A stretch of 64,000 bases of DNA from Pestalotiopsis fici W106-1. Taxonomy: Eukaryota > Ascomycota > Sordariomycetes > Amphisphaeriales > Sporocadaceae. The stretch spans positions 1,725,490-1,789,489 of the forward strand of contig NW_006917100.1 in the NCBI RefSeq assembly GCF_000516985.1. Reading direction: 5' to 3'. Of the stretch, positions 18,136 through 49,317 are shown piece after piece; the first letter of the stretch is position 1; each line of letters starts with the position of its first letter. The position numbers and the translations under genes are program-made. The notes under the pieces are model-generated. The model did not search any database, was not told the DNA's origin, and saw nothing but the letters and a program-made list of their open reading frames with translations.

Positions 18136-20578
18136 GTTGGGTATATGAACGACTAGCGCTGTATGGGTATTGAAATTATTAACTTGAATTAGATAAGTGG
18201 AGGCAGGCCAGCCGCTGAAATCGAAAAGAGTAGGACGAAAAGAAAAGGTCGTTCTTTACAGACTTCCTGAGCTGCGATGAGGCGGTTGTTGGACAAGAAG
18301 AACTTTCTATTTTCCAGGTGACCTGGAGTCTTCATATACTCATTCTACGAGCCACCATACAAACTACTTGCTCTGTCACATCATCTGATATCTCCCCTGG
18401 ATCTACATGATAGAACAGATGTTTTTGCTGTACTCGTCATCATACGGTGGTCACTAGATCCATTATAGAAGCTGCAAACATGGCAGAACACTATTTTCGG
18501 ATGACTGAAACCTCATTGAAGAAGATCTTGAGCGACTTATGAATGAGGGGTCTTCTCAAAAATACATCATGACCCGCAATCAGTATTGTTATTCAGGCTT
18601 GGCATGAACGGGGAGTTCCCAAGAAAGAGAAGCTTATGTTTTAGCATCGTGAGATCCACCAAAGTTCTGGTCTCCTGTCAAAAGGTGCACGGGTGGTTTG
18701 ACAGGCTCCTCTTTCAAATAAGAACATGCTTAAACAAAAGCCAAGCCTGTCAAAAACCATAAACCCGATTGCACAAAGCGGACCATGAAGCTGGAATGGT
18801 CGATGCCAAACCGGAATTCCCGTATACCGGGATGCGATGCCGCCGCTTCGGGGCTGCAGGTCGTGCACCAACCCCAGTCGACGGCTTACGCGGCCTGGCC
18901 AACATGATCTCCCTTTTGGGTTTCATACAACCAAGAATGAATACCTGGAACTCTTATTGTTGCGCTTCCAAAATAAAACCTTCTCAACTGCCGGAAAGGA
19001 GTTATTCTTCCTTGGTGTTCTTTTCACGCCCTAGTTCCGCTTTGGCCTGGGTAATATTGAACCCAAACGTCGGTCCGTTGCTCTTAGTCCGCCCGACTGA
19101 TGCGCCTAGTGAACTCCACGACTATATTCCCATGATGAGATCAGCCTCATGTAAATGGATATATTTGTCTATAATTGAAAATACCTGCAGCCATTGCACG
19201 GAATTGTACTTGTTTGGACAAGCTCTTTTTGCGACTTCATCTCCCCGTTTGGGCCCGATCTAATGACAAATTATTCTCTGATGTCCGTAATTATACTGAC
19301 TGACTGGCATACAAGCCAAAGTATTCTGCTCACCAGCGTCCCTCAAGTCAACGCCATAGACATTCGTATTCTGGCCATACGTCTCAATGTAATCATGTAC
19401 GTATTTCGCGCAAACCGACCCACCGAGTGGACAATCATGTTTCACTTTCAATACCCAATGTCAGCTGAGCAAAGAAGCATGTCTTGATATTTGCATACAA
19501 GTTGAAGCTGCTGGAGAAAAGGACATGGATAGACTGCACAACTTCAGTGAGTGTTTGTTCCCGTGACAGCGGACTAGGCGAGCGGATGATATGTTGGTAA
19601 TGACCATTCTGATGCCAAGGGCCGGGTGACATATAGTGCATGCCAGAAATGAGGGAAATGAATAGTCCAAACAGTCTTTTTAAATAGCACAATTCGCAGT
19701 CCCATTTTCCAATTCTCCGAAGCTTAACATGGGTACGGTACAAACCACAAGGATGTGATACATCAACCGTCAGCACTGCATCATTTGGATTCGCCTGTTA
19801 GTGTTAATTGAATTTTGACTTGAAGACTGAGCATTGCAAAAAAAGGCGGTGATGTTCATGGTGTTATTATTCATGCAGTCAAGAAGGCACGAGATCTATT
19901 AATGAAAGCGCCGGAACGGGGACCAAGGGGACAGCGCGATTGAACTAGGCTCAAACAACGCTAGCGGCTTTGTGGACCGATCCGCGAGTTTAATTGGTAG
20001 ATCCTGGGGGCCACTAAGACGGTTCCAGACAGGCGCCTCTGTCGACCTGCACAACACGAGCTCCCAGCTTTTGTGTGGAGACCCGAGTGCACAGGCCACA
20101 GTGGACAAACAAATGGATCCATGGCCCGGACACGCCCAATGACAGTTGACAACTTGGACCGCCCCTAGCCAAGCGTCACCCTTTCCCATGGCAACGGGTC
20201 CTGATCTTGATCTTCAGCCCAGAGCGAGAGAGCAGGAATCCTGCCCACAACTTGACGCCTAGGGCGCATCGCAGCAGACTCATTACCAAACTCCACCGAG
20301 TCGTCATCTGCTTGCGCGAGCATCAGTCCCGTCGACGGCATTGTTCTCGATGCTCTCTCCAGTCATTCGCTGCTGAAACACAGAGAGAAGGAGACATTGT
20401 CAACTCACTGAATCCATACTTATCTAACCATAACTATCACGACATTCGTTCATTGCAAACATCAACACGCCCGCCGCTCCACAGACACGTCGAACCGAGA
20501 AACCGGCCCTTCACGTAGCGAAATACTCTGTACCGAACAACAACGTCGCGCGAGCCTGCTGGCCGCAACGCCGAAATC
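18136..20578. promoter_or_regulatory. Divergent promoter region between the proline-rich precursor and chs7
   Basis: 2.4 kb. The left part should carry the promoter of the secreted precursor gene and the right part (about 20200-20578, CA/CT-rich) the chs7 leader. Short frames such as 18769-19263 resemble no known protein. No repeat or RNA gene is evident. Confidence 0.4.
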
Positions 20579-21645
20579 ATGGGAGGCTTTGGGGATTTCA
20601 CCACCATTTGCGAGACGGCCCCTTTACCGCTCTGCGCAAATGTCGGGCCCATCACGTCCATTTCTAGCGGCGTGGGCATCGAGCCCGACTGCTATGCGCG
20701 AAACATTGAGGTTGCCAACACCATCATTTTCCAGGGCGCCTCCAGTTTCATGCACATCATTGCCCTCATCATGACCGTTGTCATGATTCTTCACATCCGC
20801 GGCAAGTTCACAGCCGTCGGCCGCAAGGAGATTCTCGCCTTCTTCTACTTCTATATGCTTCTCAGCTTCTTCTCGCTCTGTGTCGATGCCGGTGTCGTGC
20901 CGCCGGGATCGGGTCCCTACCCTTACTTTGTCGCCGTGCAGTCGGGTCTCATCTCGTCGCTCATCACATGTCTTCTGATCAATGGATTCGTGGGTTTCCA
21001 GCTATACGAGGACGGCACGCCACTGTCTGTATGGCTGCTCCGACTGACCTCTTTTGTCGCATTCATTATATCCTTCCTCGTTTCCCTAGCTACATTCAAG
21101 TCATGGGCTGGCCTTGGCCCAACCAACACGGTCGGCCTGTTTACTGTCCTGTATCTCTTGAACGCCATCCAACTAGTCATCTACTTTGCGATGCAAGTTG
21201 TCCTCGTTGTGCGTACACTCCAAGATCGATGGCCTCTGGGCGACATTGCCTTTGCCGTCATCTTCTTTGTCATTGGCCAGGTTGTCTTGTATGCCCTGAG
21301 CTCGACTATCTGCGAAGCCACGAGCCACTATGTTGACGGACTGTTTATTGCGACAACCTGCAATCTTTTGGCTGTCATGATGGTTTACAAGGTCAGTTTC
21401 CTTTGCATATCGATCCGCTGTTTCATGTGCTAACATTAGATACTTAGTATTGGGATTCGATTACGAAAGAAGATCTTGAGTTTTCTGTTGGCACGAGGCT
21501 CAACAACTGGGAAGTCAAGGAGCTATTGCCCGAGGATGAGCGACGCACTACCATCTATGCTGATGAGCCTAGCCCTTATGGCCAATCCAGTGCTTATGAC
21601 CGTGGATACTCGCCAAACAGCAACAACCGAATGTCTAGATATTAA
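20579..21645 (+). CDS. chs7: Chitin synthase export chaperone Chs7
   Basis: Two exons, 20579-21391 and 21448-21645, 336 aa, with a 56 bp intron (GTCAGT donor, CTAAC branch site, TTAG acceptor). The N-terminus [19 protein letters not shown] is characteristic of the Chs7 family. It is followed by seven hydrophobic segments between about residues 50 and 270, and a polar C-terminal tail with [12 protein letters not shown] and a Ser/Tyr/Asn-rich end. Chs7 sits in the ER membrane and is needed for export of class IV-type chitin synthase (Chs3). Length and topology match the family. Its neighbours are unrelated housekeeping genes. Confidence 0.95.
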
Positions 21646-22211: not shown

Positions 22212-22790
22212 ATGCCTGACAAGATCACCTCCAAGAATCTTTCCTACGACCAATCCCTACCGCCGTTCCTCGCGCGGCTCCGCGGGCAGCAGACTTTGGA
22301 CGCGCAGTCCCCCGATCCCAACTTGGCCGCGCGTCGGAGAGCTGCCAAAGTGCGCAGTGCCAGCGAAGAAGCCGAAGATGCTCCCGTGGTGGTGGACGAG
22401 GACGGCAACGTTGTGGAGCTGAAAGCCGGGCAGCTAGACGAGGAGGACGGTGAGGACGGGGAGAACATCAAGGAAGCCGCTGAGAACAAGACAGCCAAGA
22501 ATGGCGATCTCCCTGCTCCCGAAAAGGAGAAGACGGCCGGTATAGGCGCGGCCAAGAAGCGCAAGGTCGGCAAGGTCATTGGCGGAGACGACAACGACGA
22601 GGAAGAAGACGGGGCCGGCGGCGGCGTTGATGCCGCCATTGCCAAAGCCGTCAAGGCCACCAGGAAGCTTGCCGACGAACCTACCAAGGAATCTGACAAG
22701 ACGATTGAGGCCAATAAAGCGACCGGCAAGAGCGACAAGAAGAAGAAGGCCAAGAAGATCAAGCTGAGTTTTGGTGATGACGACGGCTGA
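22212..22790 (+). CDS. DUF4604 family nuclear-type protein
   Basis: A single exon of 192 aa. It begins with the conserved block KITSKNLSYDQSLPPFLARL, which marks the DUF4604 family of small fungal proteins. The rest is charged and predicted disordered: an acidic part (EEDGEDGEN), a basic patch (AKKRKVGK) and a C-terminal KKKKAKKIKLSFGDDDG that closes the family domain. The basic clusters suggest nuclear localisation. The molecular role of the family is not known to me. It lies downstream of chs7 on the same strand and is convergent with the GT8 gene. Confidence 0.88.
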   Translation: MPDKITSKNLSYDQSLPPFLARLRGQQTLDAQSPDPNLAARRRAAKVRSASEEAEDAPVVVDEDGNVVELKAGQLDEEDGEDGENIKEAAENKTAKNGDLPAPEKEKTAGIGAAKKRKVGKVIGGDDNDEEEDGAGGGVDAAIAKAVKATRKLADEPTKESDKTIEANKATGKSDKKKKAKKIKLSFGDDDG

Positions 22791-23200: not shown

Positions 23201-24274
23201 TTATTTATTGTTGGCAAATCCCTGAACATTACTCCCAATAGCCTTCATATCAGGGTCTTCGTCACCGCCGGTCCAATCGACATGATTTGTCCCATCAGGC
23301 GGTGCAACACCCTTCCTCACCAGGTCTATCACCCTAGGCGCGGTTACCGTTGACGCTTCCTTCCCCTTCTCCCACTGCTCATACGCGTCCCACCACCATT
23401 GATGCGTCACGCCGTCACGCCCCTTGTACCCTGCTGTGCCGTCCATGGCATTCCGTTTCGCCCATGGCTTGTCGACAATATAGTGCAAGCAAATCACTTC
23501 GTCGTCTCGCCAGATGTTCTCGTGCCAGTATCTCATCGTCTTCAAAGCATTGTACTGCCATCCAAGCGCCCGCCATTTGCCTCGAAAGTAGTGCGCCAGG
23601 AAATCCTGATCTGGAAACTTGAAGGAAGATAACAACGGCGTTGTGTGAAACTCGGCTAGCATATCAGTCCATAGTTCCGGCGTGGGGCGAAACAGGAACA
23701 TTCCGCCGTTGAGGAGAGTATGCGTCCTAGGCCCTTTCGCTGTGGGTTGTGTAGGTTGAGTGAGCGCCAGGGGATGACTGACGGGCGTATAAGCACAGTT
23801 CTCGCGACGCCAATCTTCTGGAGCCCAGGGATCGCCATCTCTGTTGCATACACAGGAGTGATTTGCTCCGATCCAGCCGTCTGGAAGTTCCACTGTCTTG
23901 TCAAACACCGAGTCCGCATTGCGGAAAACTGCCATATCGGCGTCTAAGTAGCAGACGACGTCATACTCGGCGAGTTCGAAAACACGCAGTTTCGTCCAAG
24001 TATCGGCAAAGCGTTCCGCTATGAGAGTGACCTTGGTGTTCTTGGGCGGGAGGAGAACATCACACGGCCGTAGTATAATATTGCTCTCATCAGCCTCGAG
24101 TCTCAAGGCTTCCAGGGCCAGGTCGGAAAGGGTGTGTGTATACAGCACAACTAGAGGATATTGGCTACCATGGTTCCTCAACGTGTGCGCCAAAACCACC
24201 ACGCCGGCGAGATAGCTGGCACGTGTAATCAATGTTGCATAGGCAAACTTCTTGGCCGCCACACCCTTTGTCAT
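23201..24274 (-). CDS. Family 8 glycosyltransferase (glycogenin/galactinol synthase-like)
   Basis: A single exon of 357 aa. The N-terminus (KKFAYATLITRASYLAGVVVLAHTL) is the GT8 nucleotide-binding start. The metal-binding DxD is at D111-A-D113 in CYLDADMAVF. Later family blocks include LLNGGMFLFRP, FPDQDFLAHYF and a C-terminal CLHYIVDKPW. No transmembrane segment or signal peptide is seen, so it is probably cytosolic. GT8 enzymes of this subgroup move glucose or galactose from a UDP-sugar; plant relatives use the cyclitol myo-inositol as acceptor. It lies 905 bp from, and on the same strand as, the cyclase gene, so it is a candidate sugar-adding enzyme of the mycosporine cluster. That role is inference; a general sugar metabolism role is equally possible. 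Confidence 0.9.
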   Translation of the reverse strand: MTKGVAAKKFAYATLITRASYLAGVVVLAHTLRNHGSQYPLVVLYTHTLSDLALEALRLEADESNIILRPCDVLLPPKNTKVTLIAERFADTWTKLRVFELAEYDVVCYLDADMAVFRNADSVFDKTVELPDGWIGANHSCVCNRDGDPWAPEDWRRENCAYTPVSHPLALTQPTQPTAKGPRTHTLLNGGMFLFRPTPELWTDMLAEFHTTPLLSSFKFPDQDFLAHYFRGKWRALGWQYNALKTMRYWHENIWRDDEVICLHYIVDKPWAKRNAMDGTAGYKGRDGVTHQWWWDAYEQWEKGKEASTVTAPRVIDLVRKGVAPPDGTNHVDWTGGDEDPDMKAIGSNVQGFANNK

Positions 24275-25179
24275 GGCTTCTGTTCGACCAAGGACCCTGC
24301 GTGCGTATCACAGTATGGATCTTCCTGGTTTGCCTGCATCAGTTTGTAACAAGTTGATGTTTAGTGACATTACGGCTTTGAAAAAAGTGGTGTATAGCAT
24401 CACTTCTCAATTACAAGTCGACTACGTCATGCACATGAATCCACAGCCGGCATTTCGTTGCTTCGCCTGCGGCACTTTTGTTGCCGGGTCACGCCATGAT
24501 TTCATGACTTCTCAACGAAGATGCTGACCGCACGATGTGACCAAAGTTCCGCCATTTCATGTTAGGTTAGTAGGCGTGTTACATGTAGATGGTGTTTGTT
24601 CCCATTTAGAGTTTCTCAATGACAAGCATTTCCGTCCAATCCCCTCAGTTTCTCACCGTTTACTGCGTGTCAAGCACCCAGTAACAAAACACGTGCCACT
24701 GGACCAGAGTCTATATCATCTATCGGGTCTAAGCCCAGGAGAGGACTTTGACACCCTTACAATCTAGCCTCTGCAGCGGATCCAGGAACGCACGAAAAGT
24801 CAATTCACGGCTACAGAATTATGAAGGCCACGGCATTTTCTTCTTGTTTTCCCTCCCGATCACATGTCACCCCACTAGGTAGGTAGTATCTAGCAACATT
24901 TGCCGACAATGTGCAACATCGTGACGTTTGCGAGAACATTATTTGCATGTAATATACCTCATTTATTGGTGATACTTTTCATGTAGAGATATGTGACTGG
25001 ATGCATCTCTTGGCATCAGAGAATTTTGCTCATGTTTTTCTGCTTTTCGTTTTTGGTATCACAAGGTTCGTCATGGCACTCCAATCCTGCGTTATGCAAA
25101 ACCCAAAAAATGATCAAAACTCCATTCCCACGGTGAGAGAAAGTTAGAGGAGCATGTAAATCACCTGATTTTGACGCTT
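24275..25179. other. Intergenic region between the cyclase 3' end and the GT8 start
   Basis: 905 bp holding the GT8 promoter and the 3' UTR of the cyclase gene. Only short frames and no recognisable element. Confidence 0.4.
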
Positions 25180-26872
25180 TTATGCTTGAACCTTGACTCC
25201 GTTTGTGTACGGCTTCTTGGCATGACCATTGCCGTTGGACAGCAGAGCCGCCTTGGCCTTTTCCAGCAGCGAAATATCGCCATTGCTATTCCCATTGGCG
25301 TGTCCGTATCCGTTTCCGTTGGTGGCGCTGCCATTGACAACCTTGCTGCCCGGCGGGATGTCGGCCTCTTCTGCGGCGTCGTCGACGCTCTCGCCGTTCT
25401 CCGTGTAGCCCGTGTCGCTGCTGTCGACATAGGCTTCGATACCGGCACCCTGGCGGGGGTAGGTCTGGCAAATCTCCTTGTGCTTGCGCAGGGCGTCGCG
25501 CAGCTCGTGCTCGGACACGTCGTTGATGAATTTGCAGCTGCCCAGGGGGTTGGGCACGGCCAGACGCAACAGGCCGTCCCGGGTCTTGAGGATGGCGGCC
25601 GTGCCTTTATCCAAGACCTCGTCGTCAAACTGGGGGTGGTCAATGCTGAGTCCGGCACGCGAGAACAGGGTCAGCAGCCTGCGGTGCTCATCGGCGGAAA
25701 GGAGACCGCGCTTCATGGCTAGGGTGGCCGAGTAGGCCATGTCGATGGAGATGGCATGACCGTGTCGGAGAGGTGTCTCGGGCACCAACTCATGCAAGGG
25801 CGACCAGCTGTGACTCGAGTCAGAACCAAAAGAGGAAAGAATTTAGAGTTTTGCTCAAGATGCACTCACGTGTGGCCATAGGCAATGACTCTGTCAAGTC
25901 CGATCTCGTGCAGGTTGGGCGACTCCAAGCGGAGCATCTCGTAGATGCCCTCGCGGTTAATCTGAGTAATAATTGTTAGTCGTGATATGGTTACCAGTAG
26001 GACTTTGGTGAGGACTTGCGATATCGGCCGCCTTGCGGACCTCATCAGGAGCACCGTCTGCTCTGCCGAACCGGCACTCAATCAACTGCTCGCAGTACTT
26101 GTCCAGCAAGTCAAAGACCTCGAGGTGAGAACAGGATGAAATCTTGATAAGCTCGGCGAACCCATTTCGCACTTGGGCAATCGGTAGTGTGCGCAAAAAG
26201 GTAAAATCCAGAAAGGTGTGCATGGGCGCATGGTATGCACCCAGACGGTTCTTGTATCGGCCATAGTTGACGGCCACCTTGATGCTTACGCTGGCGTCAA
26301 TGAGACCAATGACGGTTGTGGGAATGCGAATAAAGTTGGTGTTGCGTCTGTACGCGGCGCAAGCGAAACTGGAGCTTGTGTTAGGGAGTGTAGCTCGCAT
26401 AATGAGTAATGACTGTTTGGAAAACCACTCACCCAGCAACGTCTGTGACCAGACCTCCTCCAACGACGAGAACGGGCTCCTAATCTCTAGTGTCAGAAGA
26501 CATTGTAATGTGAAGTGGAATGGAGAAGCAGTGTTTCCGTACCTTTCGAATGATACCAAAGTCTGTCATGGAATCACAAATCTCGAGGAATGTGTCAATG
26601 GTCTTTGCCTTTTCGCCAATCGAGGTCTTGTGGATTTTCAAATCGAGGCCATAGTGTCGAAAGTACTTTTCCATCTTGTGTCCATAGACGTTGTACACAT
26701 TCTTATCCGTGACGGCCAGCACCCGGCCCCAACGCTTGTAGCAATCTGCCAGATTGGGGTTGGCGACATCGAATACTCCGTCAATAAAGGTGAAGTCATA
26801 CTCGATCTTTTCGTAGCCTTCGACATGAAAGCCGTTCTTCGTCTCCGAAACGCTTGCTTTGAGGTCAGACAT
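25180..26872 (-). CDS. mysA: Sugar-phosphate cyclase, desmethyl-4-deoxygadusol synthase type (MysA-like)
   Basis: Five exons: 26543-26872, 26433-26479, 26020-26368, 25870-25961 and 25180-25807, 481 aa. It belongs to the dehydroquinate synthase-like fold. Visible blocks are [11 protein letters not shown] (about 117-127), [40 protein letters not shown] and GHTWSPLHE (NAD and metal binding). These follow the desmethyl-4-deoxygadusol synthase pattern more than dehydroquinate synthase. The known reaction converts sedoheptulose 7-phosphate to desmethyl-4-deoxygadusol, the first committed step to mycosporines. 2-epi-5-epi-valiolone synthase is the close alternative. The C-terminus carries a Gly/Asn-rich extension ([15 protein letters not shown]) beyond the enzyme core. 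The third intron (25962-26019) uses a GC donor (GCAAGT). It is divergent from the methyltransferase gene. Confidence 0.92.
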
Positions 26873-27793
26873 CTTGGTGACTGGAGATCACTAAAGTACC
26901 TATAATTTTGAATGAGATGGGAGTAGTAGATTGAGATGAACACGATGAAAACAGGAATACCCTTCTCATCGGGAGTTTTTGAGGAAATATGGGAAACTTT
27001 AAGGCCACTACTTTTCTCCATGGCCAGCAAAGGAATTCTGCCCATTTCCCATGTCTAGGACGTTTTTCTTGGATCCGAATCCACGCGTCATCACTATTGG
27101 GGGAACCCGCCGTAAATCCCAAGTCCCATTGTCACCGTATCTTTCGAAAACGGATGTACTTAGTTGAGAGCATCATGAGGAAAGCTTGACCCAAGGCAGT
27201 TTTACCCTTCGTGAGACGCGACGATCCGCGGACGATCAACAGTGCTACGAATCATATAGTAGCGCGCCCGCCTAGTGTGGTCCCTGATCGGCAATAGCTG
27301 TCTATGCAGGGAGTCTTTCTACCTGGGTCATCCTTAATTCAGCTTGCCGAGATGGTGGACTCAAGAAGGGGCTAGTAGTCGTCTAGAAGAATTAGTCCCA
27401 GTATAGAGTTGGCATTTGATCTGGAACACCATCCACGTTTCTGCACGTAACATATAGTAGAGTACTCTCGATGCGAGGCAGCTGATTGGCGGAAATGTGC
27501 TCCGGGTCACAGAGACGTACCTCTGCGTCTTCGTGTCGTCACGATAAGTCAATGACTCCAAGACACGGAGTAGTGACACATCACATTGCTTCGAGCCGCA
27601 TGCACCAACAACCGAATACAAGCGCAGACCAAGGCCCTTTAGTATTCTGACAGGCAGAATGCAAAGTCCGTCGTTGCCTAGAGCACCTTGTCCGAAGAGA
27701 AAAATCAACAGAAACGCGTGAAGCTCGAGAGCAATTTCTCAAAGATCGCGTCTCACACACTAGAAACTTGTCGATTTACCACCTTGAGTAGCC
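26873..27793. promoter_or_regulatory. Shared divergent promoter of cyclase and O-methyltransferase genes
   Basis: 921 bp between the two start codons, which suggests co-regulation. It contains a direct repeat ACGATC at 27221-27226 and 27232-27237 (11 bp period) around CGCGG. Paired GATC/CGATC elements resemble binding sites of the White Collar light-response complex. The role is inferred from sequence only. Confidence 0.4.
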
Positions 27794-28763
27794 ATGGCAG
27801 GGGCAGTACACAAGGACTTTAAAGGCACAGCCTATCAACCACAAGAAGAGGTCTATGTATGTCTCCGTGATATTCTTTTCTTGATTCTCCTTTGATTGTA
27901 TGTTTTTCTCAAGTCTGATTCTTTTGCAGTTTAACGATGGACGAGAAATAGCTCTCTTACACTTCATCTACAGCCACCCAAACTTGGAACAACTGCGCGG
28001 CAATCCGCAGAAAGTCCTCGATGCCATTGACGAATATGGCAAAACCAAAAAGTACCTCATGAATATCGGCGAGTACAAGTCCAAGACCGTCGTGGACTTG
28101 ATTGCCGAAGTCAAACCCCAGGTCATGGTCGAGATTGGTGCTTATGTCGGGTACTCTGCCATTGCGTTCGCGGCCGCCATGAAAAGAGCCGGCGGCAAGC
28201 GGTACTACAGTCTAGAGCACAATCCCGAGTTCGGGGCCGTGACCTCGTCGCTGGTTGATCTCGCCGGCCTCGGCGATATCGTGACCGTGGTCATCGGCTC
28301 CAGCTCGGATGGGCTGCGGCGTTTACATCGAGACGGCGTGGTAGAGCACATTGATCTGCTCTTCCTGGACCACCAGAAACCGTTTTACACGCCGGATCTC
28401 AAACTGTGTGAAGAACTTGGTCTTGTGGGATACGGATCGGTTTATGCGGCGGACAATGGTATTACATGCCTGGACGCCTTGTCCTATGTCCAGTCTTTTA
28501 TACTAACCTCTCCACAGTGGTCAAACCGGGCAATCCTCCGTACCTCGAGTATGTTAGAAGCACCGTCGATCAGAAACGCCAGCGGTTTGCATCTGCCAGC
28601 AACGATGGGCCCAAGGGTAACCCCGATCTCGTATACAAGAGCGAATTTGTGGAAGGATGGGAGCCGAGTGGCGTGCCGGTAAGATGCGACACTCCTGACA
28701 AGAATCAATTGATGCTGACGTTGATAGGATGCTCTTGAAATCACAAGATGTGTAAAGGTTTAG
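27794..28763 (+). CDS. COMT-type O-methyltransferase, putative 4-deoxygadusol-forming step
   Basis: Four exons: 27794-27856, 27930-28458, 28518-28678 and 28728-28763, 262 aa. Each intron has GT-AG ends and the frame closes precisely. It is a class I SAM-dependent methyltransferase: motif I is VEIGAYVGYS (about 88-97). The catechol O-methyltransferase metal and lysine motif is LFLDHQKPFY (D168, K171), with D196-N197 in AADNV and the ending DALEITRCVKV. In the mycosporine pathway an O-methyltransferase converts desmethyl-4-deoxygadusol to 4-deoxygadusol. The divergent pairing with the cyclase supports that role. Its family differs from the CCoAOMT-like cyanobacterial MysB, so the assignment by context needs testing. 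A separate catechol methyltransferase is the alternative. Confidence 0.9.
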
Positions 28764-29565
28764 TCAAGTGGAGTTTTGAGCGCACGATTCACAATGGGTG
28801 TATCGTAAAGTTGTGAGAACCTTTGAGACGATTAAACGGCAGTAATTCCTAGATACTCCTTGAAAGATACAACTGCTCCCCATTATCGTATGATTTATGC
28901 CTAGATCAAAATGCTTACTGAGTGCGGCCGCATGGCTTGGATGAAAACAAAGATTGAACTGGTTTAGATTTAATTGCGCGATAATCGAATAAGTTGTAGT
29001 AGGCGAGACGCATCTAGCCCACTCATATTGATCTGATGCGTACAAGCGATGTCCGTTGAAGTCGGCTCATACTAGCTAGGCCTATGCACTTTGAATGCCT
29101 CGCCCGCAATCCGTCGCTCAGGAATGTAGATCGTGCTATTGTGCAAGCATTAGTTTACTTTTTCCATGGCTCGACAGCATGGTATTGATTGATGTGTTGT
29201 TCTTTTCTTGTGGGGTTGATGATTCATGAGTGGCAGGTTAAGACATTTGACTACTACTAGGACGATAGTTTTTGGAGGTGCTCATCATCTCAATGATATC
29301 CATGCATGTACAAACATAAATTCCTTCAAGCATCATTCAAACCAAGAGTTTATTCATTTATCAAACTTTGCACTAATCTCGCGTGCTTGATTTGCCGCGC
29401 TACGCGAAAACTCAATTGCTGTCAAACCACCTCCATGATCTAGCTCCGTTATATCCACCAAAATACCAGCGCAGTGCTTTGCATCAGCACACACGAAGCC
29501 GTTGTAGAGACAGCTCACTTTCTACGTGCGGCGCACTTGTGTTGTCTAAAAGACTGTAGCTAATC
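28764..29565. other. Intergenic region between methyltransferase and ATP-grasp gene
   Basis: 802 bp, presumably a 3' UTR and then the promoter of the ATP-grasp gene. No coding frame or repeat stands out. Confidence 0.45.
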
Positions 29566-31128
29566 ATGATTCGAATGGGTTTATACAGCGCCACTCGTTC
29601 TCTTGCGCTGGTCGCCGTCAGTGTGATACTGGCTCCTTGGTCGATTGCATTGGCGTTGCTGGTCATTTTCTTCCGACCATGGGCATCGATGCTGGGATCA
29701 TCAAGATATCCAAAGCCGAAATGCCTCAGTCCAGTCAGGAGCCGAACAGTTCTCGTCACTGGGGTTGGCATGGCCAAAGGCTTGACAATTGCGCGCGCCT
29801 TTTATCTCCAGGGTCATCGGGTTGTGGGTGCTGATTTCGAGAACCAAGCCATTCCTTGCTCCGGGCGGTACTCAAAGGGCCTCTCGAAATTCAGATCAAT
29901 GAAATCACCGTCTTCTTCCGTACAGTCCTCGCGAAGCTACGTTCAGCAGATGCTGCGGATAGTCAGGGAAGAAGATGTCGATCTCTGGGTATCTTGCTCC
30001 GGCGTCGCTAGTGCCCTCGAGGATGCCAAGGCCAAGGAGCTCATTGAGCGGGAAACAAGATGCAAGTGTATCCAATTCGGGGTCCAAGAAACGGAAACAT
30101 TGCATGAAAAGGACTTGTTCATGCGCGAGGCACATAGACTCGGTCTGCCCGTTCCAGAAACACACAACTTGACATGCCCAGACGATGCTCTAAACATATT
30201 ATTGAAATTCCATGGCATGTCTCCAGCCCGCAAGTTTATACTCAAAACCGTTGGAGTGGACGATGCCAATCGCGGGAACATGACGCTCCTCCCACTCGAC
30301 ACCAAAGAGGCAACAAAGAGGTACATATCCCGCCTCTCCATCAGCCCGCAACGTCCCTGGATCCTTCAAGAATTCATCACAGGAGGCGAAGAGTATTGTA
30401 CTCACGCCTTGATTGTCCGGGGAGAGGTCAAGTGCTTCGTAGCCTGCCCAAGCGCCGAGCTCCTCATGCACTACCGGGCCCTGGAACCCCAATCGGCGCT
30501 GTCGCGGGCCATGCTGGCCTTTACGCGCGAGTACATTTTTCGCTCGCCCAACTCGGAGCAGTTCACGGGCCACCTGAGCTTTGACTTCATGGTCCGGGAC
30601 AGCGCCGTGGATGAGCACACAATTGAGCGGTCCCTCTACGCCATTGAGTGCAATCCGCGCGCCCACACGGCCGTGACGCTCTTTGCCCAGCAGCAACACG
30701 GCAGCGGCGGTGACGGCGCTGCCACAACGTCAGCCATGGTCAAGGCGTACCTGTCGGCCCTCGAGGAGACGCCCGAGAGCTATGCTCATGTACTGAAGCA
30801 GAATGGACTGCGGGAGGAAATGATTGTGTTCCCTCCCAAGAGCACACTGCCAAGATTCTGGATCGCTCATGATCTTTTCACTCTTGTTCTCCAGCCCATA
30901 TTGAACTTTGTTGCCGGCCAAAAGTCTGTTCATCAGCTTTTCTGTTGTTTAACGGAGTTCCTGATTCATGTTTTGACTTGGAAGGAGGGCACTTTCGAGG
31001 TATGGGATCCGTGGCCAGCTGTAGTGTTGTACCATGTTTACTGGCCCCTCACCATACTATCGGCATGGTGGAGAGGAGATGATTGGAGTAGGGTCAATGT
31101 TAGTACGACAAAGATGTTTGCCTGCTGA
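29566..31128 (+). CDS. mysC: Membrane-associated ATP-grasp ligase (MysC-like)
   Basis: A single exon of 520 aa. The N-terminus has a hydrophobic segment (about 12-36, SLALVAVSVILAP to LLVIFF), followed by a Rossmann-like start VLVTGVGMAKGL. The ATP-grasp core includes FILKTVGVDDANRGNM (K227), PWILQEFITGGEEYCTH and the metal-binding YAIECNPRAHTAV (E361, N363). This combination and the N-terminal anchor match MysC, which ligates an amino acid (glycine in cyanobacteria) to 4-deoxygadusol through an acyl-phosphate-like activation of the ring. The C-terminal 90 residues contain more hydrophobic, possibly membrane-contacting helices. It lies downstream of the methyltransferase in the same direction. 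The amino acid used here cannot be read from sequence. Confidence 0.92.
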   Translation: MIRMGLYSATRSLALVAVSVILAPWSIALALLVIFFRPWASMLGSSRYPKPKCLSPVRSRTVLVTGVGMAKGLTIARAFYLQGHRVVGADFENQAIPCSGRYSKGLSKFRSMKSPSSSVQSSRSYVQQMLRIVREEDVDLWVSCSGVASALEDAKAKELIERETRCKCIQFGVQETETLHEKDLFMREAHRLGLPVPETHNLTCPDDALNILLKFHGMSPARKFILKTVGVDDANRGNMTLLPLDTKEATKRYISRLSISPQRPWILQEFITGGEEYCTHALIVRGEVKCFVACPSAELLMHYRALEPQSALSRAMLAFTREYIFRSPNSEQFTGHLSFDFMVRDSAVDEHTIERSLYAIECNPRAHTAVTLFAQQQHGSGGDGAATTSAMVKAYLSALEETPESYAHVLKQNGLREEMIVFPPKSTLPRFWIAHDLFTLVLQPILNFVAGQKSVHQLFCCLTEFLIHVLTWKEGTFEVWDPWPAVVLYHVYWPLTILSAWWRGDDWSRVNVSTTKMFAC

Positions 31129-31328
31129 AAAACAAAGGCCGGAGTGTTTATATAGCTTCCATGTATGGCTCATGTGCTACTCGTATTCGATCGTTATGAA
31201 ACGTGTATTAATGTAAGGACTGTTGCTGTATTTTCCAGAATATTTATAATTGGCGATGGGAAATGTAGAGTAGGGTATATAATACTATTTGCCCGAGAAT
31301 AAATGTTATATACATTCTATACTTGAGT

Positions 31329-32232
31329 CTATTCGTCCACTGCCTTCACGATAGCTCCATCTCGGCCTTGGTCAAGCTGGTTCAAAATGGCCATGTCATC
31401 ATCGTCCAGGTCGAATCTATAAACATCCGCATTCTCCTTGATGCGAGAAGGCGTGTCGCTCTTGGGAAGGGGTATATATCCTCTTTGAAGTGACCATCGA
31501 ATCAGTACCTGAGAAGCGGTGACTTTGTGCTTCTCGGAAATTTTCTTGAGGGCTGGGTCATCCGATTTCTTGTTCCTTACAATGGGACAGTATGCCTCCA
31601 CTGCAATGTTGTGCTGTCCACAGTATTTCACCGTCTTTGCTTGTTGGCACCACGGATGCAACTGTGTCAAACGTATTAGGGTACCGACTCATCGATTTGT
31701 TTGTTGGCTGCAAGTCACTCACCTCGATTTGGTTCACATGAGGCGGCCAGACCTCTGCATACTCCTTCATCTCTTCAATATGCTGAACGCCATAATTGCT
31801 GACTCCAATACTTTTGGCTCCTCCCTCCTTGTAAAGCCTCTCCAGAGCTTGCCACAGCTCCTTGCGCTTCTCCCTCCCACAGTTGGAGCTGTGAATCAAG
31901 AACAGATCAACGTAGCCCCCGGTGCGGTCGAGCTTCTCAACACTTTCCAGACACTGCCTGTAGCTCTTATCCACGGAACCGGCTGCATCAAGTATCTTGG
32001 TCGTCAGGTATACATTGTCACGCGATAGACCCGCCTTCTTCCATGCCTCTCCGACCTGGTTCTCGTTGCTGTAGAATTGCGCCGTGTCAATGTGTCTGTA
32101 GCCGTTGTCCAGCGCCGCCAAACACGACTGCACGCATACTTCTGGCGGTGATTTGTAAACGCCAAAGCCAAGCCGCGGGACCGTTTGAGAGTTTGACAGC
32201 TCAAGGATATCCGAGATTGCTTTGGGTATCAT
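31329..32232 (-). CDS. Aldo-keto reductase in the mycosporine cluster
   Basis: Two exons, 31723-32232 and 31329-31661, 280 aa; the intron at 31662-31722 has a GTGAGT donor and CACAG acceptor. The catalytic tetrad is complete: D49 and Y54 in GYRHIDTAQFY, K79 in YLTTKI and H114 in FLIHSS. The NADPH-site block IPLPKSDTPSRIKEN is present, and the start VPRLGFGVYKSP is typical. Family members reduce aldehydes and ketones with NADPH. It lies between the ATP-grasp and A-T-R genes and is divergent from the latter, so it may reduce an aldehyde released by the A-T-R enzyme to an alcohol. That pairing is inference. Confidence 0.92.
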
Positions 32233-32904
32233 GTTGGCGTGCGGTCAGGTTGAATACTTTGATTATCGCTGGCCGGGGGATGGGATGCCGTGAACACTGC
32301 TAATGGATGCAAACGCGCATACATGACTATCCGGATTGGAATATTCAATTATGCAAATTATTTCATCCCGCCTGGACGAGAAATATCCGGTATTGTTGAG
32401 GAAACGCCATGCATGAGCAACTGAACCTACTTGGTGCGTTTGTGCGGCTACATGCCAATTCTCCAAGTCGATGACCTCATGATGACCCATACCAAGCTCG
32501 TGAGTGAGTCTGGACTGATCCAACTGAATTGGTACGAGACCTCTCATATTTCATTACTTGAATGTATAATGTAATGAAAACAGAGGAGCAATACTGACCT
32601 AAATCAATTAACGCCGTGCAAGGGCTTTGAACTCCTGCCTGATACGTTTGTAGCGCTGGGATCTCACAAAATATGATCCCACAATGTTGCATTAGAGCGG
32701 AATGGCACACGAATCTCATGACAACAGAGTTACTAGGCTGGCCAGATATGCCAATCATTAAACATGAAAAGTTTTAGACCTTTTCCCGTTTCATACGTTT
32801 ATTGAAATATGTACCCGTCTTTGCCAGTGGAGAAAAGCTCAGATTGCTCTCGGTCTTGTCGAATAAAGCTCCGAGGGCCGAATAATGAACTATAATCAGA
32901 GTGC
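32233..32904. promoter_or_regulatory. Divergent promoter of aldo-keto reductase and A-T-R genes
   Basis: 672 bp between two divergent start codons. AT-rich, no coding frame; shared regulation of both genes is plausible. Confidence 0.4.
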
Positions 32905-35900
32905 ATGATTTCCTTTTTGAGGTTTGCATTCATCCATGTACAGTTGATGGCTACGTTTGTCGCAACTCAGCCATTGCTACGTACTATGAATATGGGTGAC
33001 ACGGATTTGAAAGCCTTGAATTACTTCACCTGCACGCTGGGCGAATCTGCAGAATGGAAAGGCCAACAGCCAAAAGGTGCCAAGACAGCTTATCATACTG
33101 TTCTCCAGCTCGTAGACAACAAGGCGCAGGAGACACCCGACGACCCTGCCATTGGGTTTGCAGATTTCACTGCTCATCAGCATGATGATGGTGAGTCGTC
33201 CCACTAGTAAATATAACCAGTCTCTCGTCTGACGATCGACAAGGCTTGCCCTTTCTTACATTCGGTGCCCTGAACAGCCGGTCCAGGGATGCCGCCAGAA
33301 TTCTGTCCAGAGAATTGCACGGAGCTATCAAAAACGAGTCACCTGCGATGATCGGGTTGCTATGCAGCAGCAGCCTCGACTTTGTACTGACATGGCTGGG
33401 CCTGATGCGCTTGGGTCATACAGCCTTGCTCCTTGCGTAGGTGACCTACATTCCTGTCAATACCGAATACATCGCTCATCTCCAATTTGCAGACCACAGC
33501 TTGAGGCTCCAGCAATTAAACATCTATGCGAGGGTGAAGCGGCAATGACAATACTCATAGACAAGACGCATGAAAAATGGACAACGCAACCCATTGAGGG
33601 CATCACCTTTCAGCACATCCCAGACTACCAGTGCGCAGATGCCAAAGCAACCATATCCCCAAATCAGCATGTTCCGAAAAGCTCAGACGTTGCGTATCTG
33701 AGACATACCTCGGGCACATCATCAGGTCTACCCAAGCCCATAGTTCAAACCCATTGGGGAGCCGTCGGCGTGCTGCCACGCTTGACGGGCCATGAGCACA
33801 GCGCCACCTTTACCACGACGCCCCTTTACCACGGCGGCCTGGCCGATTGTTTTCGTGCATGGACGGGCGGTGCCATGATATGGTTCTTCCCCGAGGGGAA
33901 AGTGCCCGTCACCGAAACTAATGTCAGAAAGGCAATTGAGTTCTCAAGGAAAAATAGCCCATCTAGCGTGTGCGTGGAGTATTTTACCAGCGTGCCGTAT
34001 GTCCTGCAGGGCCTCGCCAGCGATCGCGAGGGCCTGCGGCTACTCCAGGGAATGAGTCTGGTAGGCGTCGGAGGAGCTGCGCTCGCAGCCACCGTGGGCG
34101 ATGAACTCGTGCGGCAAGGTGTGAAGCTTGTCTCGCGGATGGGCAGCGCCGAATGCGGGTTCCTCATGTCGTCGCACCGCGACTACGATAGCGACAAGGA
34201 GTGGCAGTACCTGCGACCCGTGACGAACGATGAATTTATCTCTTTCGAGCCCCGAGACGGCGGCTTGTTTGAGCTCGTGGCCAAGCCTGGTTGGCCTTTG
34301 AGAACGAAGCAGAATCGTCAGGACGGGTCGTACGCAACTTCTGATTTATTCCAACCGCACGATGCTATATCGAATGCGTGGCGGTATCATAGCAGATCCG
34401 ATGCGCAAATCACTTTAGCCAACGGCAAAAAGTTCGACCCAGCTCCGCTCGAAGGAGACATTCTGGGTGGAGCTGATCTGCTCGAAGACATCTTCGTGTT
34501 TGGCACGGGACGAGAATTTCCAGGCGCACTCTTATTTCCCAGGTCGGAAAATCTGTCCAAAGCCAAAGTCATAGAGGGTGTGTGGCCTTCTATAGAGCGC
34601 ATCAACAGTGCTTCGCAAAGCCACTCTCGTCTCACCAAAACAGCCTTGGTGGTGGTGTCCAAGAAGGGCGGCCAAGAAAATCTAGAAAAGAGCAGCAAAG
34701 GAACCGTCATGAGACGTCAAGCGGAAGAAAAATATGCAGAGCTGATTGAGTCTGTCTACGGAGCTGGGAAGGATCAGCACTTTCACCATGAGACTCTGAA
34801 TACAGCACAGCTTCAGGAGATGATCGTGGGGAAGTTCTCACAAATTATCGACCGAGTCATTGATCCTGATGATGACATTTTCAGGCAAGGAGTCGACTCG
34901 ATTGCTTGTATTCAAATACGCAAGCTGGTGGAGACCAGTCTTGTACCGCCTGGATCGTGCCCATTGCCACTCAATGTCATCTATGAGCAGCAGACAGTCC
35001 GGAACTTGGCGTTATATATTCAGACTGTGCGGCAAGGTAACGAAAAGGGCAATTGCCTTGAGAATACAGCTATCGAGAGTTCCGAGATGAAGCAGATGGC
35101 CACATTGACTAAAGTGTACAGAGACTTTGATCCTGCAACAGTATCTCAGGTCAAATCAAGGGAAGGGAATCGTCGCGGCATCATTCTGACAGGCGCAACC
35201 GGGGCACTTGGGGCTCATCTCTTACACTGTTTGCGAGAATCTCCTGAGATGCGCAAAATATATTGTCTTGTTCGTGCGCAAACAGCGAACGCAGCCCATG
35301 AACGAGTGTCCCAAAGTCTACGAGCGCGTGGACTCTGTGAGCTGGAACAATTCGCATCGCACCCATCCCTCGAGCAAAAGGTAGTCTGTCTACCATGTGA
35401 CATTTTCAATGCACATCTAGGACTCTCGGAAGAGATGAGAGGCCGCATCAGCCAGGATTGTTCCATCTTTGTCCATGCGGCTTGGACAGTGAATTTCAGC
35501 CTTCGACTAGGCTCATTCGAGGACCACATCCGCGGACTGCATCATATGATTCGATTTGCAATTTCCATTGGATCGAATCTTGTCTTTGTGAGCTCCACGG
35601 CTTCAGTGAGCAGGTCGTCGGAGCAGCGCATACTCGAGTCGATCCCATCGAACCCATCCGACGCCGCTCCGTTGGGTTATTCTAGGTCAAAGTGGGTAGC
35701 GGAGCAGGTCTGTTCAGCAGCGAATCATCACTGCGTCAGCAAGGCGGCAGAAGAAGATTTTGTCCATGGACATCCTCAAGTGTCCGTTGTCCGTGTTGGT
35801 CAGCTGTGCGGAAATGCAGCTGGTGTTTGGAATGCCAGCGAAGCATACCCGCTAATGCTCTCGACGGCAAAGATCACCGGCTGCCTGCCCGACTTGCAGG

Positions 35901-36382
35901 ACGAGAGTTTGAACTGGCTGCCCGTTGACCAGGCGGCACAAGCTCTTTTGGAAATCATCATACATGACACTGATGGTCGTCGTCGTACTGCTCCGGAGCC
36001 CGGTGGTGCAAGTCCGGTGTACCATGTTTTGAACCCGCACCGGCAACCTGCATGGCGCGACATGCTGGAATGGGTTCAAGACGATAAAGGGAGCCGGTCC
36101 ACTTCTTTTGAAATAGTGTCACCCCGCGAGTGGATCAGCCGCCTGGAGAAGGCCCTGGATGTTGGCGGCGGCGACGGGCATCTGCACCCCGCGCAGAAAT
36201 TAGTGGGATTCTGGCAGCAGAAATATCGCGACGAACCAATCGTAAATGGCACCACCCACAAGCCTCGGGTTTTTGATACAAAAAATAGTTGTCGCGTGTC
36301 AAAGACCATGGCGCAAGTTCATCCGCTTTCACAAGCGCAGGTATTGAAAATGTGGGATTGGATATGCAGTCATGTTGCATGA
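32905..36382 (+). CDS. Adenylate-forming reductase (NRPS-like A-T-R)
   Basis: Three exons: 32905-33190, 33244-33436 and 33493-36382, 1122 aa; introns of 53 and 56 bp restore the frame. The start is uncertain, as later in-frame ATGs exist. The adenylation domain has the A3 loop HTSGTSSGLPKP (about 230-242), a YATSDLF block and a C-terminal lysine in SSKGTVMRR. A thiolation domain follows with DDIFRQGVDSIACIQ (phosphopantetheine serine S629). Then comes a thioester reductase domain with GATGALGAH (about 727) and catalytic Y889-x-x-x-K893 in GYSRSKWVAE. There is no condensation domain. Such enzymes activate a carboxylic acid, hold it as a thioester and release it by NADPH reduction to an aldehyde or alcohol. 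In this cluster it could make the amino-alcohol part of a fungal mycosporine. Confidence 0.92.
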
Positions 36383-37492: not shown

Positions 37493-40400
37493 ATGTCTAG
37501 CCTCACAGCAAAGAAGAGCGCGCCAAGTGGCATTCAAGCCGAGGAAACAAAATCTGCATCCGAGACGGGAGTCACGATAGCTGGAAACTCGGACTCGCAT
37601 ATCTCGGCTGCAAATGCAATCACACAGACACCGCCGGGGACGGCAGTCGTGGCCGCTACTTCCCAAGGTGAGCTTCCACTCGCACCCCGCCCGCCAGTCA
37701 CTCTGCCCCTGTGCCGCAGTGCCGCGATTGGGATCCCATTCCCAGCTCCGTGGCTGTTCTTGAGGCGCGGTCTGCTGACTATGCATATGCTGCATCCTTT
37801 TTTCCTATTTTTTCTCACCATGCCAAGGCGATCGCCAGGCATCCATTTTAGGGCAGATGCGCCCGTCATTATACTGGTGCCACTATGTATATTTCCCATA
37901 CTAACCAATAACCAGTCTTGCCTGGCGACAGTGCTCAGTCCACCCCCTTGAATGCGGGTCAGCCGAATAAGAAGGGACCCGCGAAGTTATCACGTAAGGA
38001 AACTGCTGGGAAAGATGTTAAAGATGCGAAACCTCGCCCCAACCCGGCGACGCCCTCGGAGCCGGCAATCGATCCTTTGTCCCATGTGCGTCTTTCACCC
38101 CGACTTGGTCAAATCTGCCCAAAGGAAGAAGGAAAAAACAAGAAGACTTGCTAAACAAGACTTGCTAGCATATCTTTGTGAGGACCAACACTGATCGAGC
38201 TATTCCGCCAAAACTCCGTGGACCTGGCAGGCCTGACAGTCCTGCCAATGAGTCTCTCCCACGACCTAGTTCCGACCTCGCTGCGAAACAAGCTCCGCTG
38301 CACCCTGAACATCTTCGAGACAGGAGAAAGCCCGCCTCATTCCTCAGCCGATTGAGCATGATTGGAAACAAGAAGAGAGGGGATGACATGGACGATGGCG
38401 CCTCCGAAATTAGCGATATGCGCACCGAGGGCGCTAATGCGGTCGCTTTCAGTTCGGATATTGACTTTAACGGCTACATTCCACGACACAAAGAACCGCC
38501 GCGCTACATTAGAGTGAGAACACATCACAAGAAGGAAAAGGAGTTTAATCGCATGTTCCTTGCGCAAGAGCTTGTTGGTACCGAGGTAAGTGGTGTAACT
38601 CTTGTTAACGTCCAAGTGCAAGGGCAAAGGCTGCTTGCGGGACGCATGGTATACTTGACCACATACATCTTTTACCTGTATACTTTCGATCTAAGCATAT
38701 ATACGGCTCTGCTAATATCTTTTACAGGCCCCCCAAGAAGATGATGGTGAAAATCCTGCTATTAATGGAGCACCCGTACAGCCGGTACGGGGCTTTGGAC
38801 GGAAAGATCTCAACCCGGGCGGTCCCATATGGGCCATGGAGTTCAGCAAAGATGGAAAGTATCTGGCAACTGCAGGGCGAGACAGGATTGTGAGAGTTTG
38901 GGCAGTGATCGCGACTCAGGAAGACCGCAAGGCGTACGAGGAAGAATCCGTGTCTGCAGATGTTGGCGCAGGTGAAAGGCTTAGCGCGCCCGTCTTCCGG
39001 CCACGGCCAATTCGTGAATTCTCAGGCCATACGGGCGAGATCCTCGATCTGAGCTGGAGCAAAAACAATTTTCTGCTGTCCTCGTCGATGGACAAGACTG
39101 TCCGTCTATGGCACTTGAGTAGGGACGAATGCCTTTGCACCTTCAAGCATAAAGACTTTGTTACCTCGATTGCTTTCCACCCTAGGGACGACCGGTTCTT
39201 CCTGGCCGGATCATTAGACTCCATTCTCAGACTGTGGAGCATCCCAGACAAGTCTGTGGCCTTTTCAAGTCAAATAGCCGACTTGGTTACTGCCGTTGCA
39301 TTTTCTCCCGACGGCAAGACATGCATAGCTGGGTGTCTAAACGGTCTCTGTACCTTTTACGAGACGGAGGGATTGAAGTTTGAGACACAGATGCATGTTC
39401 GCTCATCTCGAGGCAAGAATGCCAAAGGGAGCAAAATCACAGGCATCCAAACCATGACTTCCCCGCCAGATGTGCTGGATGGTGAGGTAAAAGTCTTGGT
39501 TACCTCCAATGATTCCCGTGTGCGCATCTACAACCTGCGTGACAAGGCGCTAGAGCTCAAGTTCAAGGGGCACGAAAACACGAGCAACCAAATCCGTGCC
39601 AGCTTCAGCGACGATGGCAACTATGTCATTTGTGGAAGCGAGGACAAGAGAGCATTCATTTGGTCGACAGGTCCTTCGCAGTCAGACAACAAAGAGAAGC
39701 GTCCGACTGAACATTTCGAGGCCAATTCTGCAATCATTACACAGGCCATTTTTGCACCAACCGCTACCCGACAACTTTTGCAGGCTTCGCAAGATCCCAT
39801 TTTCGCCTTGTGCAACCCGCCGCCCGTGACGCTGATGAGCAGGGAAGAGGCGAATATGAGCCAGACCACGCTCGGCCAGGAATCTGTCCCCGACAAAACA
39901 TTGGCGATTAAGAAACCCATGGAAACACCAGCTTTCATTGCCCGGTCAAAACACCATGATGGCAATGTCGTGGTAACGACAGATCATTCTGGCATCATCA
40001 AGGTCTTTCGTCAGGACTGCGCATTCGCCAAGCGACGCCACGATAGCTGGGAAGCCGGATCTACCTTCTCGCGCCGAGTTGGCAAGGATGGACTTTTGGG
40101 ACGGAGTGGAAGCGTCAAGACGAGTACCAGCACTGGCACCAAAGAACCGGCCTCACGACGTGGATCAATATCTCAAGCACCATCTGGCCTTGGACCTGGA
40201 ACCCCACAATTTAGCTCTGAAAGAATCATGTCCTGGCGACAAGGAGTCGAAGGTATCCCATCGCGGCCGAGCTCCATTGCGCTTGCTACCCCTGTTAGGA
40301 GTGAACGGTCCATGAGCCCTGCCAAAGCACGCACTCCGATTCCGTCAAACGCGCACAATGCCGCTTCGGAAGCCCGGCGGCAGCCATACGCTAGTTCTCT

Positions 40401-41025
40401 GGCATCACCACCACTTCAGCCCACAAGTCCATCATCGAGCGTCAAGACAAGCGATCAAGATCGGCTTGACAGACCTCCTCCTCCGAGTTTCACATTCAGA
40501 AGTGTGGATGAGGAAGATGAAGACAAGGAAGGCGGGCCCCATGTTGATCATTCCGGCCCTACCCTTTCATTCTGGAATCTGAATCGGTGGAAAGGCATAG
40601 GCAGTACGCTGAAGGGAAATGCTGGGGCCGGGACCTCTGATCGGAGGGACAGCAAGACAAGTGAATCGGGAGCGGCCATGCTGACTCCAGTACCGGAATC
40701 TGACGATAGAAGGCGCAAGAGTTTAGGGTCTCGTGTGATCCAACCACACTCGCACTCGAGTAGTCCCGATAAGACTGAACAATCCGGAAGGAGGAAGAGC
40801 ATGCCGTCCAAGGATCTGCTAGCCCCACCAGGGGGGCGTCCTCACCGTGATCGCCAGACGAGTGTTGTGAGTACCCTGACAAGCGAGGAAATCAGCGATC
40901 CCGAAACGAGTGATCAGGGAAACCCACAGTGCTCCAAATGCGGAAGTCGCGAGTTCAAGTCGAAAAAGGTTGCTGGTCAGCAGAAGCTTGTGTGCTCGTC
41001 ATGTGGCAGAATCCATGATAACTAG
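37493..41025 (+). CDS. WD40 protein with C-terminal zinc ribbon (WDR44/Laf1-like)
   Basis: Four exons: 37493-37667, 37916-38085, 38169-38585 and 38728-41025, 1019 aa. The start is uncertain because the frame stays open upstream to 37382. The N-terminal third is disordered and basic, with KKRGDDMDDGASEISDM and IPRHKEPPRYIRVR. A WD40 propeller covers about residues 280-580; repeats include LATAGRDRIVRVWAV, LLSSSMDKTVRLWHL, FLAGSLDSILRLWSI and VICGSEDKRAFIW. A long Ser/Pro-rich tail follows, and the last 40 residues hold a C4 zinc-ribbon-like motif (CSKCGSREFKSK then LVCSSCGRIHDN). The propeller order matches WDR44-like proteins; mammalian WDR44 binds Rab11 and yeast relatives act in sterol transport. 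The exact role here is not shown by sequence. Confidence 0.9.
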
Positions 41026-48121: not shown

Positions 48122-49317
48122 GATGGATACGCCACTCACTTTCAGGTCTTGTGAGAAGCATTGCGAAACTGTTGAGATAGGAGCAGCCAAGAGCAAGCAA
48201 AAAAGAACATTGATACCCTGTAAAATTGAGCAACTGGCACATGACGAATGCTCCTTTTGTAATTTGATAGCAATATTTGAGTTTCACATCTTGAAGACGT
48301 AGTCGCACAAGACTGTTCCTGGCTGAGTGTCTCCGACAGCAGTACCGCTCAGGACATTCCCGGGTGCTTTTCAAGTTCGTATTACCCGATACCTTGGATG
48401 TATTGTCATGGGCATACAATGTGTCATTGTGGGCGAGTTGAGAGCTTTTTCAAGTAGTGTACCGCAAAACTTTGCACAGGCATCATTTCTCTACTACTTG
48501 TGGCGGACGAACATCAGACGTCCCAAGAGTAGGAGATGCTCTTCACACTTGGAAGAAATATTGAAGATTTCTCTGAAACTAAATTGTCTAATAATGGCGT
48601 TTTCTACTATTGCTTCAACGCCACACAAGCTGTAACATGGCTGCATCAATCTTGGTGTAGCAATGCCGCATAACGGCAGCATCTAAACAGCGCAGAACTC
48701 AAGTGTTTTAGAAGCAAGAATTTAGTCTGAATACCTAGCAATCGAAGGAACCTCGGTCGTTACCCGATGTGCCAATGGCGAATCGAGATGCTACAGCTTT
48801 GCGTCATTCCGTCTTCGTTGTTCAAGATGGAATAACAGAAGTGCTGGGGTTAAGAGAGGGCGGACCTTTAAACGCCGCCATAACGCCGAAATCGCATCGT
48901 CAATGGAGGGGTTCAAGACGCCAGGATAGATCACATCATTGTGACCATATATAAAGACGCAGGAAACAGTCTTTTCTTCTTTCAATCATCCATCATTATC
49001 AGTAAAACGCAGATATAAAATCATCACCAGTTTTTAATTCAAACAATAAACCAAGCATAGCCCAAGGTATGTGTTCTGAGCCCTTATACCTGCCTGTATA
49101 CCTATACTCTGTACCTGTTCCACCAACCGTGCTCCGGCTCCCCACTGGTACTGGAAACGAGGGGTTGGCCAAGCCAGACAAGACCCCAAAAGTTCCATAC
49201 TCTTTGCATTGCCTTGATGTTGCATAAATATCACTGATATTCAGACTCGGAGCGGCGTCAACAATCCGTCATCAATTCTTTTCTTCATCTCACATTGGAC
49301 ACAGTATTCTATTCAAA
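48122..49317. other. Intergenic region dom34 to second aldo-keto reductase
   Basis: 1.2 kb. Contains the dom34 3' UTR and the promoter of the next gene, with a TATAAAG-like box near 48949. Nothing else recognisable. Confidence 0.4.

Follow-up and report, generated by a model that had tools for sequence, protein, structure and literature searches.

The window analysed here, a 64-kb stretch of the genome of the tea endophyte Pestalotiopsis fici, contains six neighbouring, intact genes whose introns we reconstructed. From left to right, the genes encode a GT8 glycosyltransferase (-), a predicted 2-desmethyl-4-deoxygadusol synthase (DDGS; -), an O-methyltransferase (OMT; +), an ATP-grasp ligase (+), an aldo-keto reductase (AKR; -) and a predicted carboxylate reductase with an adenylation-carrier-reductase (A-T-R) layout (+). 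A sequence-only reading of this DNA had proposed such a cluster, and the intron-containing gene models place all six genes, intact, at the positions it gave; its placing of the host in Hypocreales was wrong, P. fici belonging to Sporocadaceae of Amphisphaeriales. The features, numbered from the first base of the window, are as follows.

20519-21433: Chs7 gene, further left, before the DUF4604 gene (Pfam)
22212..22790, +: DUF4604 gene, left flank (Pfam)
23201-24274, -: GT8 glycosyltransferase, 357 aa, YLDAD motif (gene model and Pfam)
25180..26872, -: predicted DDGS (MysA-type), PFICI_12759, 481 aa, five exons
26543-26872, 26433-26479, 26020-26368, 25870-25961, 25180-25807, -: DDGS exons (gene model)
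26873..27793: divergent intergenic region between DDGS and OMT, 921 bases
27794..28763, +: OMT, 262 aa, four exons, Methyltransf_24/Methyltransf_3 (Pfam)
27794-27856, 27930-28458, 28518-28678, 28728-28763, +: OMT exons (gene model)
29566..31128, +: MysC-type ATP-grasp ligase, 520 aa, single exon, N-terminal hydrophobic helix
31329..32232, -: AKR, PFICI_12762, 280 aa, two exons (Pfam)
31723-32232, 31329-31661, -: AKR exons (gene model)
32233..32985: divergent intergenic region between AKR and A-T-R, 753 bases
32986..36382, +: predicted A-T-R carboxylate reductase, PFICI_12763, 1095 aa, three exons
32986-33190, 33244-33436, 33493-36382, +: A-T-R exons (gene model)
38716..41025, +: WD40 gene (main open frame), right flank (Pfam)

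The six genes hold 10 introns of 49-73 bases, nine of them GT-AG and one GC-AG, and Pfam assigns five of the six products at a threshold of 1e-3, the ATP-grasp ligase being the exception. The GC-AG intron (25962-26019) lies in the DDGS gene and is mishandled in the GenBank model of PFICI_12759, which drops seven residues and otherwise equals the protein rebuilt here; homologues retain these seven residues, which supports the junction. The A-T-R gene starts at 32986, upstream of the open frame beginning at 33233, and its protein, counted from the second methionine, is letter-identical to PFICI_12763 of P. fici W106-1, as the AKR protein is to PFICI_12762 of the same strain. The AKR carries the tetrad motif, as D49, Y54, K79 and H114. 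A second AKR frame (49228-50322), 45% identical to the cluster AKR, is found about 17 kb rightward. The GT8 gene, flanked by the DUF4604 gene and DDGS, gives one of the four GT8 matches in the genome. In Pestalotiopsis sp. IQ-011 the DDGS is annotated as 'Chitin synthase, class 7', which may mirror the same Chs7 neighbourhood.

The core enzymes and their known counterparts

We compared the cyclase with characterised relatives by phmmer, a pairwise similarity check run in place of a tree. The protein scores 510 bits against 5tpr, which we take to be the Anabaena DDGS, 240 bits against 4p53, presumably a valiolone cyclase, and at most 116 bits against dehydroquinate (DHQ) synthase chains. On these scores we reject a DHQ synthase or valiolone synthase, the placing named beforehand as one that would refute the cluster, and by sequence the cyclase is a DDGS-type sedoheptulose 7-phosphate cyclase, not an EEVS or DHQS, as had been proposed. 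Consistent with this, 23 of the 30 residues of the DDGS signature defined for Phaffia rhodozyma in the accessible text of PMC10057719 are identical in the P. fici protein. The sole other DHQ_synthase match in the genome lies inside a 1584-residue open frame on another contig (C4), which we read as AROM.

The OMT gene adjoins DDGS in the opposite orientation. A paralogue 65% identical to the OMT is found on contig C9, near 454.7-455.4 kb, where stops within the matched stretch point to introns or decay; a second mycosporine cluster at that site was considered and rejected, as no DDGS or ATP-grasp match lies beside it. For the ATP-grasp ligase, the P. fici genome yields no further match. It matches NCBIfam PRK06849, presumably an ATP-grasp model, at 176 bits, which is under the cut-off of 406, and its predicted structure (pLDDT 79) finds ATP-grasp folds in Foldseek, among them those of biotin carboxylase and an L-amino acid ligase.

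Bacterial DDGS loci were then used for comparison, taking the best 80 of 195, which by title are cyanobacterial except for one from Rhodococcoides. The cyanobacterial DDGS proteins are 54-60% identical to that of P. fici. An ATP-grasp homologue is present in 76 of the 80 loci, and 74 of these 76 lie on the same strand within 5 kb downstream of DDGS. Against 36 bacterial MysC-type proteins the P. fici ligase shows 27-32% identity, and an ExN motif is invariant across all 37 sequences. The OMT has a weak homologue (23-28% identity) in 30 of the 80 loci, a weak A-T-R match occurs in one, and AKR and GT8 matches occur in none. In the cyanobacterial mys clusters (mysA-mysB-mysC plus an NRPS or MysD), the NRPS or MysD adds a second amino acid, whereas P. 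fici has the reductive A-T-R instead.

A close fungal counterpart is the proven MYC cluster of Phaffia, which according to the accessible part of PMC10057719 consists of three genes, DDGS-OMT-ATPG, with DDGS divergent. It shares with P. fici the same three families in the same order and the same divergence of DDGS from OMT and the ligase; it differs in having neither A-T-R nor AKR, and the glucose-adding gene lies outside the cluster (PMC10057719). The DDGS similarity, the Phaffia-like order and divergence, and the presence of the ATP-grasp gene in 76 of these 80 bacterial loci make it near certain that DDGS, OMT and the ligase are together a true mycosporine core of the fungal type, which upholds the earlier assignment.

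The carboxylate reductase and its linkage to the core

PFICI_12763 is by its domains a carboxylate reductase, a single chain matching PF00501, PF23562, PF00550 and PF07993 (adenylation, carrier and thioester-reductase). The carrier serine lies within GVDS, and the reductase (R) domain bears GYSRSKW; among the best 120 of 900 homologues, the G.DS motif is kept in 115 and the YxxxK motif in all 120. By sequence as well as by fold, the R domain comes closest to NcCAR, the carboxylate reductase of Neurospora (8aep), and the adenylation (A) domain resembles NcCAR-like enzymes. The A-T-R layout is common to the fungal carboxylate reductases compared (NcCAR, PnlA and the 13 of P. fici). A predicted model (pLDDT 78, pTM 0.56) confirms the domains, not the substrate. 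The first exon (32986-33190) encodes a conserved NYFTCTLG stretch, and FTC[TS]LG is present in 83 of these 120 homologues.

Two features of the A domain stand out in the family. The A4 motif reads PLYHGG in 119 of the same 120 homologues, and an A3 loop of the SGTSSGLPK type, present in 109 of them, is one residue longer in P. fici than in the own-genome paralogues read. Among 16 own-genome loci taken around R domains, the nearest are L115, L113 and L117, with A4 motifs PLFHNHG, PLYHNHG and PLFHAHG, and the farthest four are L112, L111, L110 and L114. Among L110, L111 and L114, only L114 (FTFDVS) and L110 (AHDPIQ) have an A4 aspartate, and L111 has none in the stretch read. We assume the PheA rule, by which this aspartate holds the alpha-amino group in amino-acid-activating A domains. 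By this rule and a hand alignment, the A domain of PFICI_12763 appears to lack the A4 aspartate of amino-acid-reducing A-T-R enzymes (clade I of PMC9605436), with PLYHGG in its place. A pocket of this kind would suit a carboxylate with an amine that has already been joined, which is the case in a mycosporine-amino acid.

We next examined whether DDGS, A-T-R and AKR are linked in other fungi, scoring two genes of one organism as sharing a contig when they are recorded on contigs of equal size. The comparisons are drawn from the matches listed, namely the best 120 of 3209 for DDGS and the best 120 of 900 for A-T-R. Of the 33 organisms present in both lists, 29 have DDGS and A-T-R on one contig; the expectation is about 1.5 of 32, assuming 45-Mb genomes and independence, the organisms being related and not independent. 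The four organisms lacking a contig match among the matches listed are Xylariaceae FL1272, where the two genes are on separate contigs, two Apiospora species, for one and possibly both of which the two genes come from different assemblies, and Pyricularia oryzae, where the clusters comprise many contigs and are not comparable. Apiospora marii has DDGS at tag PG985_009726 and A-T-R at PG985_009729.

The contig with A-T-R also carries AKR in 19 of 26 organisms among the matches listed, and two of the seven others (Truncatella and Stachybotrys chartarum) are represented by different assemblies or strains. In all nine tagged same-contig pairs among these matches, P. fici included, the A-T-R and AKR tags are consecutive, and these pairs span Pestalotiopsis, Fusarium, Neonectria and Stylonectria. 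The reductive pair that had been noticed beside the core is thus kept side by side in further fungi. DDGS and AKR are on one contig in only 7 of 17 organisms among the matches listed, indicating that the scoring is able to return negatives. The best AKR of six Hypoxylon genomes is on a contig other than that of DDGS; in Cladonia the two genes share a contig with tags about 100 apart, and in Endocarpon they are six tags apart. An AKR tree of 47 chosen rows, 22 of them linked, needs 7 changes compared to 15.8 with shuffled labels, so the linked AKRs are clustered, and their descent as a single inherited clade is rejected. In Fusarium, no case of DDGS adjoining A-T-R occurs among the best 120 of 3209 DDGS matches, and the neighbours of Fusarium NRPS11, the A-T-R of F. 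poae, are not told in the accessible parts of PMC6480918, PMC3694855, PMC5404775 and PMC10455376. From the contig and tag counts, A-T-R is likely a conserved member of the cluster, with AKR as a conserved partner in several, not all, lineages.

Partial precedents for the gene set exist. PFICI_12763 is among 13 uncharacterised P. fici carboxylate reductases in PMC9605436, the accessible part of which gives no substrate, clade or cluster for it. NRPS-like biosynthetic gene clusters for mycosporine-like compounds are reported from most Hypoxylaceae, a family of the same fungal subclass as P. fici, in the accessible text of PMC8403587, which cites the bacterial model of Miyamoto et al. 2014; there an NRPS-like gene is tied to such compounds, and gene order, an AKR and the function of the NRPS-like enzyme are not given. 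The earlier reading knew of no characterised cluster with this exact gene set. Titles and abstract openings of the open-licence literature yielded no paper that ties a carboxylate reductase to the making of fungal mycosporines.

A putative reductive branch and its alternatives

Mycosporines with an amino-alcohol end are a known feature of fungi. Our preferred reading, to which we give a probability of roughly 0.55, is that the locus is a mycosporine cluster of the fungal type that has its own branch from carboxylate to alcohol, reduction following the joining of the amino acid. DDGS would cyclise sedoheptulose 7-phosphate, OMT would lead to 4-deoxygadusol, and the ATP-grasp ligase would attach an amino acid to it; these steps are established for the homologous Phaffia and cyanobacterial genes and are assigned to P. 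fici by homology. For the branch we infer substrates, step order and product. A-T-R, with the phosphopantetheine arm it requires, would activate a carboxylate, most probably the one on the attached amino acid, and reductively release it as an aldehyde. AKR would then reduce this aldehyde further, and the product would be an amino-alcohol mycosporine, for instance of the glutaminol or serinol type. The odds that A-T-R and AKR are the amino-alcohol branch are a little better than even. GT8, at most a candidate member of the cluster, might attach a sugar, a weak inference.

Several observations count against such a branch. Where named, the best 120 of 900 A-T-R homologues presumably belong to Sordariomycetes, yet Phaffia and Ascochyta are also reported to make mycosporine-glutaminol glucoside. 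The Hypoxylon AKRs lie off the DDGS contig, the DDGS/AKR linkage is limited to the minority of organisms given above, and the linked AKRs are not one clade. Expression of Phaffia DDGS, OMT and ATPG in S. cerevisiae is reported to yield mycosporine-glutaminol, judged by HPLC co-migration, in the accessible text of PMC10057719; if this is right, A-T-R is unneeded there or yeast supplies the reduction. Counted in favour, besides the core identity, gene order, linkage counts, R-domain nearness and A4 motif given above, are the Endocarpon genes six tags apart, Endocarpon belonging to Verrucariaceae, also the family of Dermatocarpon, for which the accessible part of a mycosporine paper (PMC6471344) uses 'glutaminol' 21 times.

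The order of steps could also be reversed, with A-T-R reducing a free amino acid (Gln or Ser), AKR giving the amino-alcohol and the ligase joining the ready amino-alcohol to 4-deoxygadusol. The Phaffia authors hold, in the accessible text, that the ATP-grasp enzyme incorporates glutaminol (PMC10057719), and clade I fungal A-T-R enzymes that reduce Ala, Val, Ser and other amino acids are described in the available part of PMC9605436. Against these stand the PLYH/PLFH-type A4 motifs of the nearest own paralogues and the apparent loss of the A4 aspartate, and we consider this order rather unlikely. It is improbable that A-T-R and AKR, while linked to the core, act on a different acid, such as an acyl or hydroxy acid, for mycosporine decoration or a separate small molecule. 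The nearness of the R domain to NcCAR agrees with this, since characterised enzymes of the NcCAR clade take aryl-aliphatic and aliphatic acids (PMC9605436, accessible part), as does the A-T-R/AKR pair of Hypocreales, for which no DDGS link is evident among the matches listed; the co-occurrence of A-T-R with DDGS on one contig in most organisms listed argues against it, and no other biosynthetic core gene is seen among nearby frames of at least 120 residues, Pfam having been run on the named genes only. That A-T-R, AKR and GT8 are chance neighbours of three functional partners fits the report that Phaffia needs three genes only (PMC10057719, accessible text), and is very improbable given that A-T-R stays linked to DDGS, and AKR to A-T-R, across the fungi compared above.

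Returning to reduction after the amino acid is joined, we tentatively suggest, at less than even odds, that PFICI_12763 represents a distinct carboxylate reductase subfamily, marked by the long A3 loop, PLYHGG and the FTCTLG N-terminus, which may reduce finished mycosporine-amino acids on its carrier arm together with the partner AKR. It may then be the missing, phosphopantetheinyl transferase (PPTase)-dependent amino-alcohol step of Sordariomycetes. No enzyme forming the mycosporine alcohol in fungi is named in the accessible parts of the open-licence literature searched, and the locus supplies two candidate genes, PFICI_12763 and PFICI_12762, together with the fungi in which they are linked. 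A CRISPR/Cas9 system exists for P. fici, according to the accessible text of PMC8539907. In Fusarium fujikuroi, the accessible part of a study of Ppt1 raises, as speculation, a mycosporine-like product of an NRPS in connection with sporulation (PMC3360786). If true, a carrier-bound route would give a concrete reason for a PPTase role in sporulation-linked mycosporine formation, as has been speculated for F. fujikuroi Ppt1.
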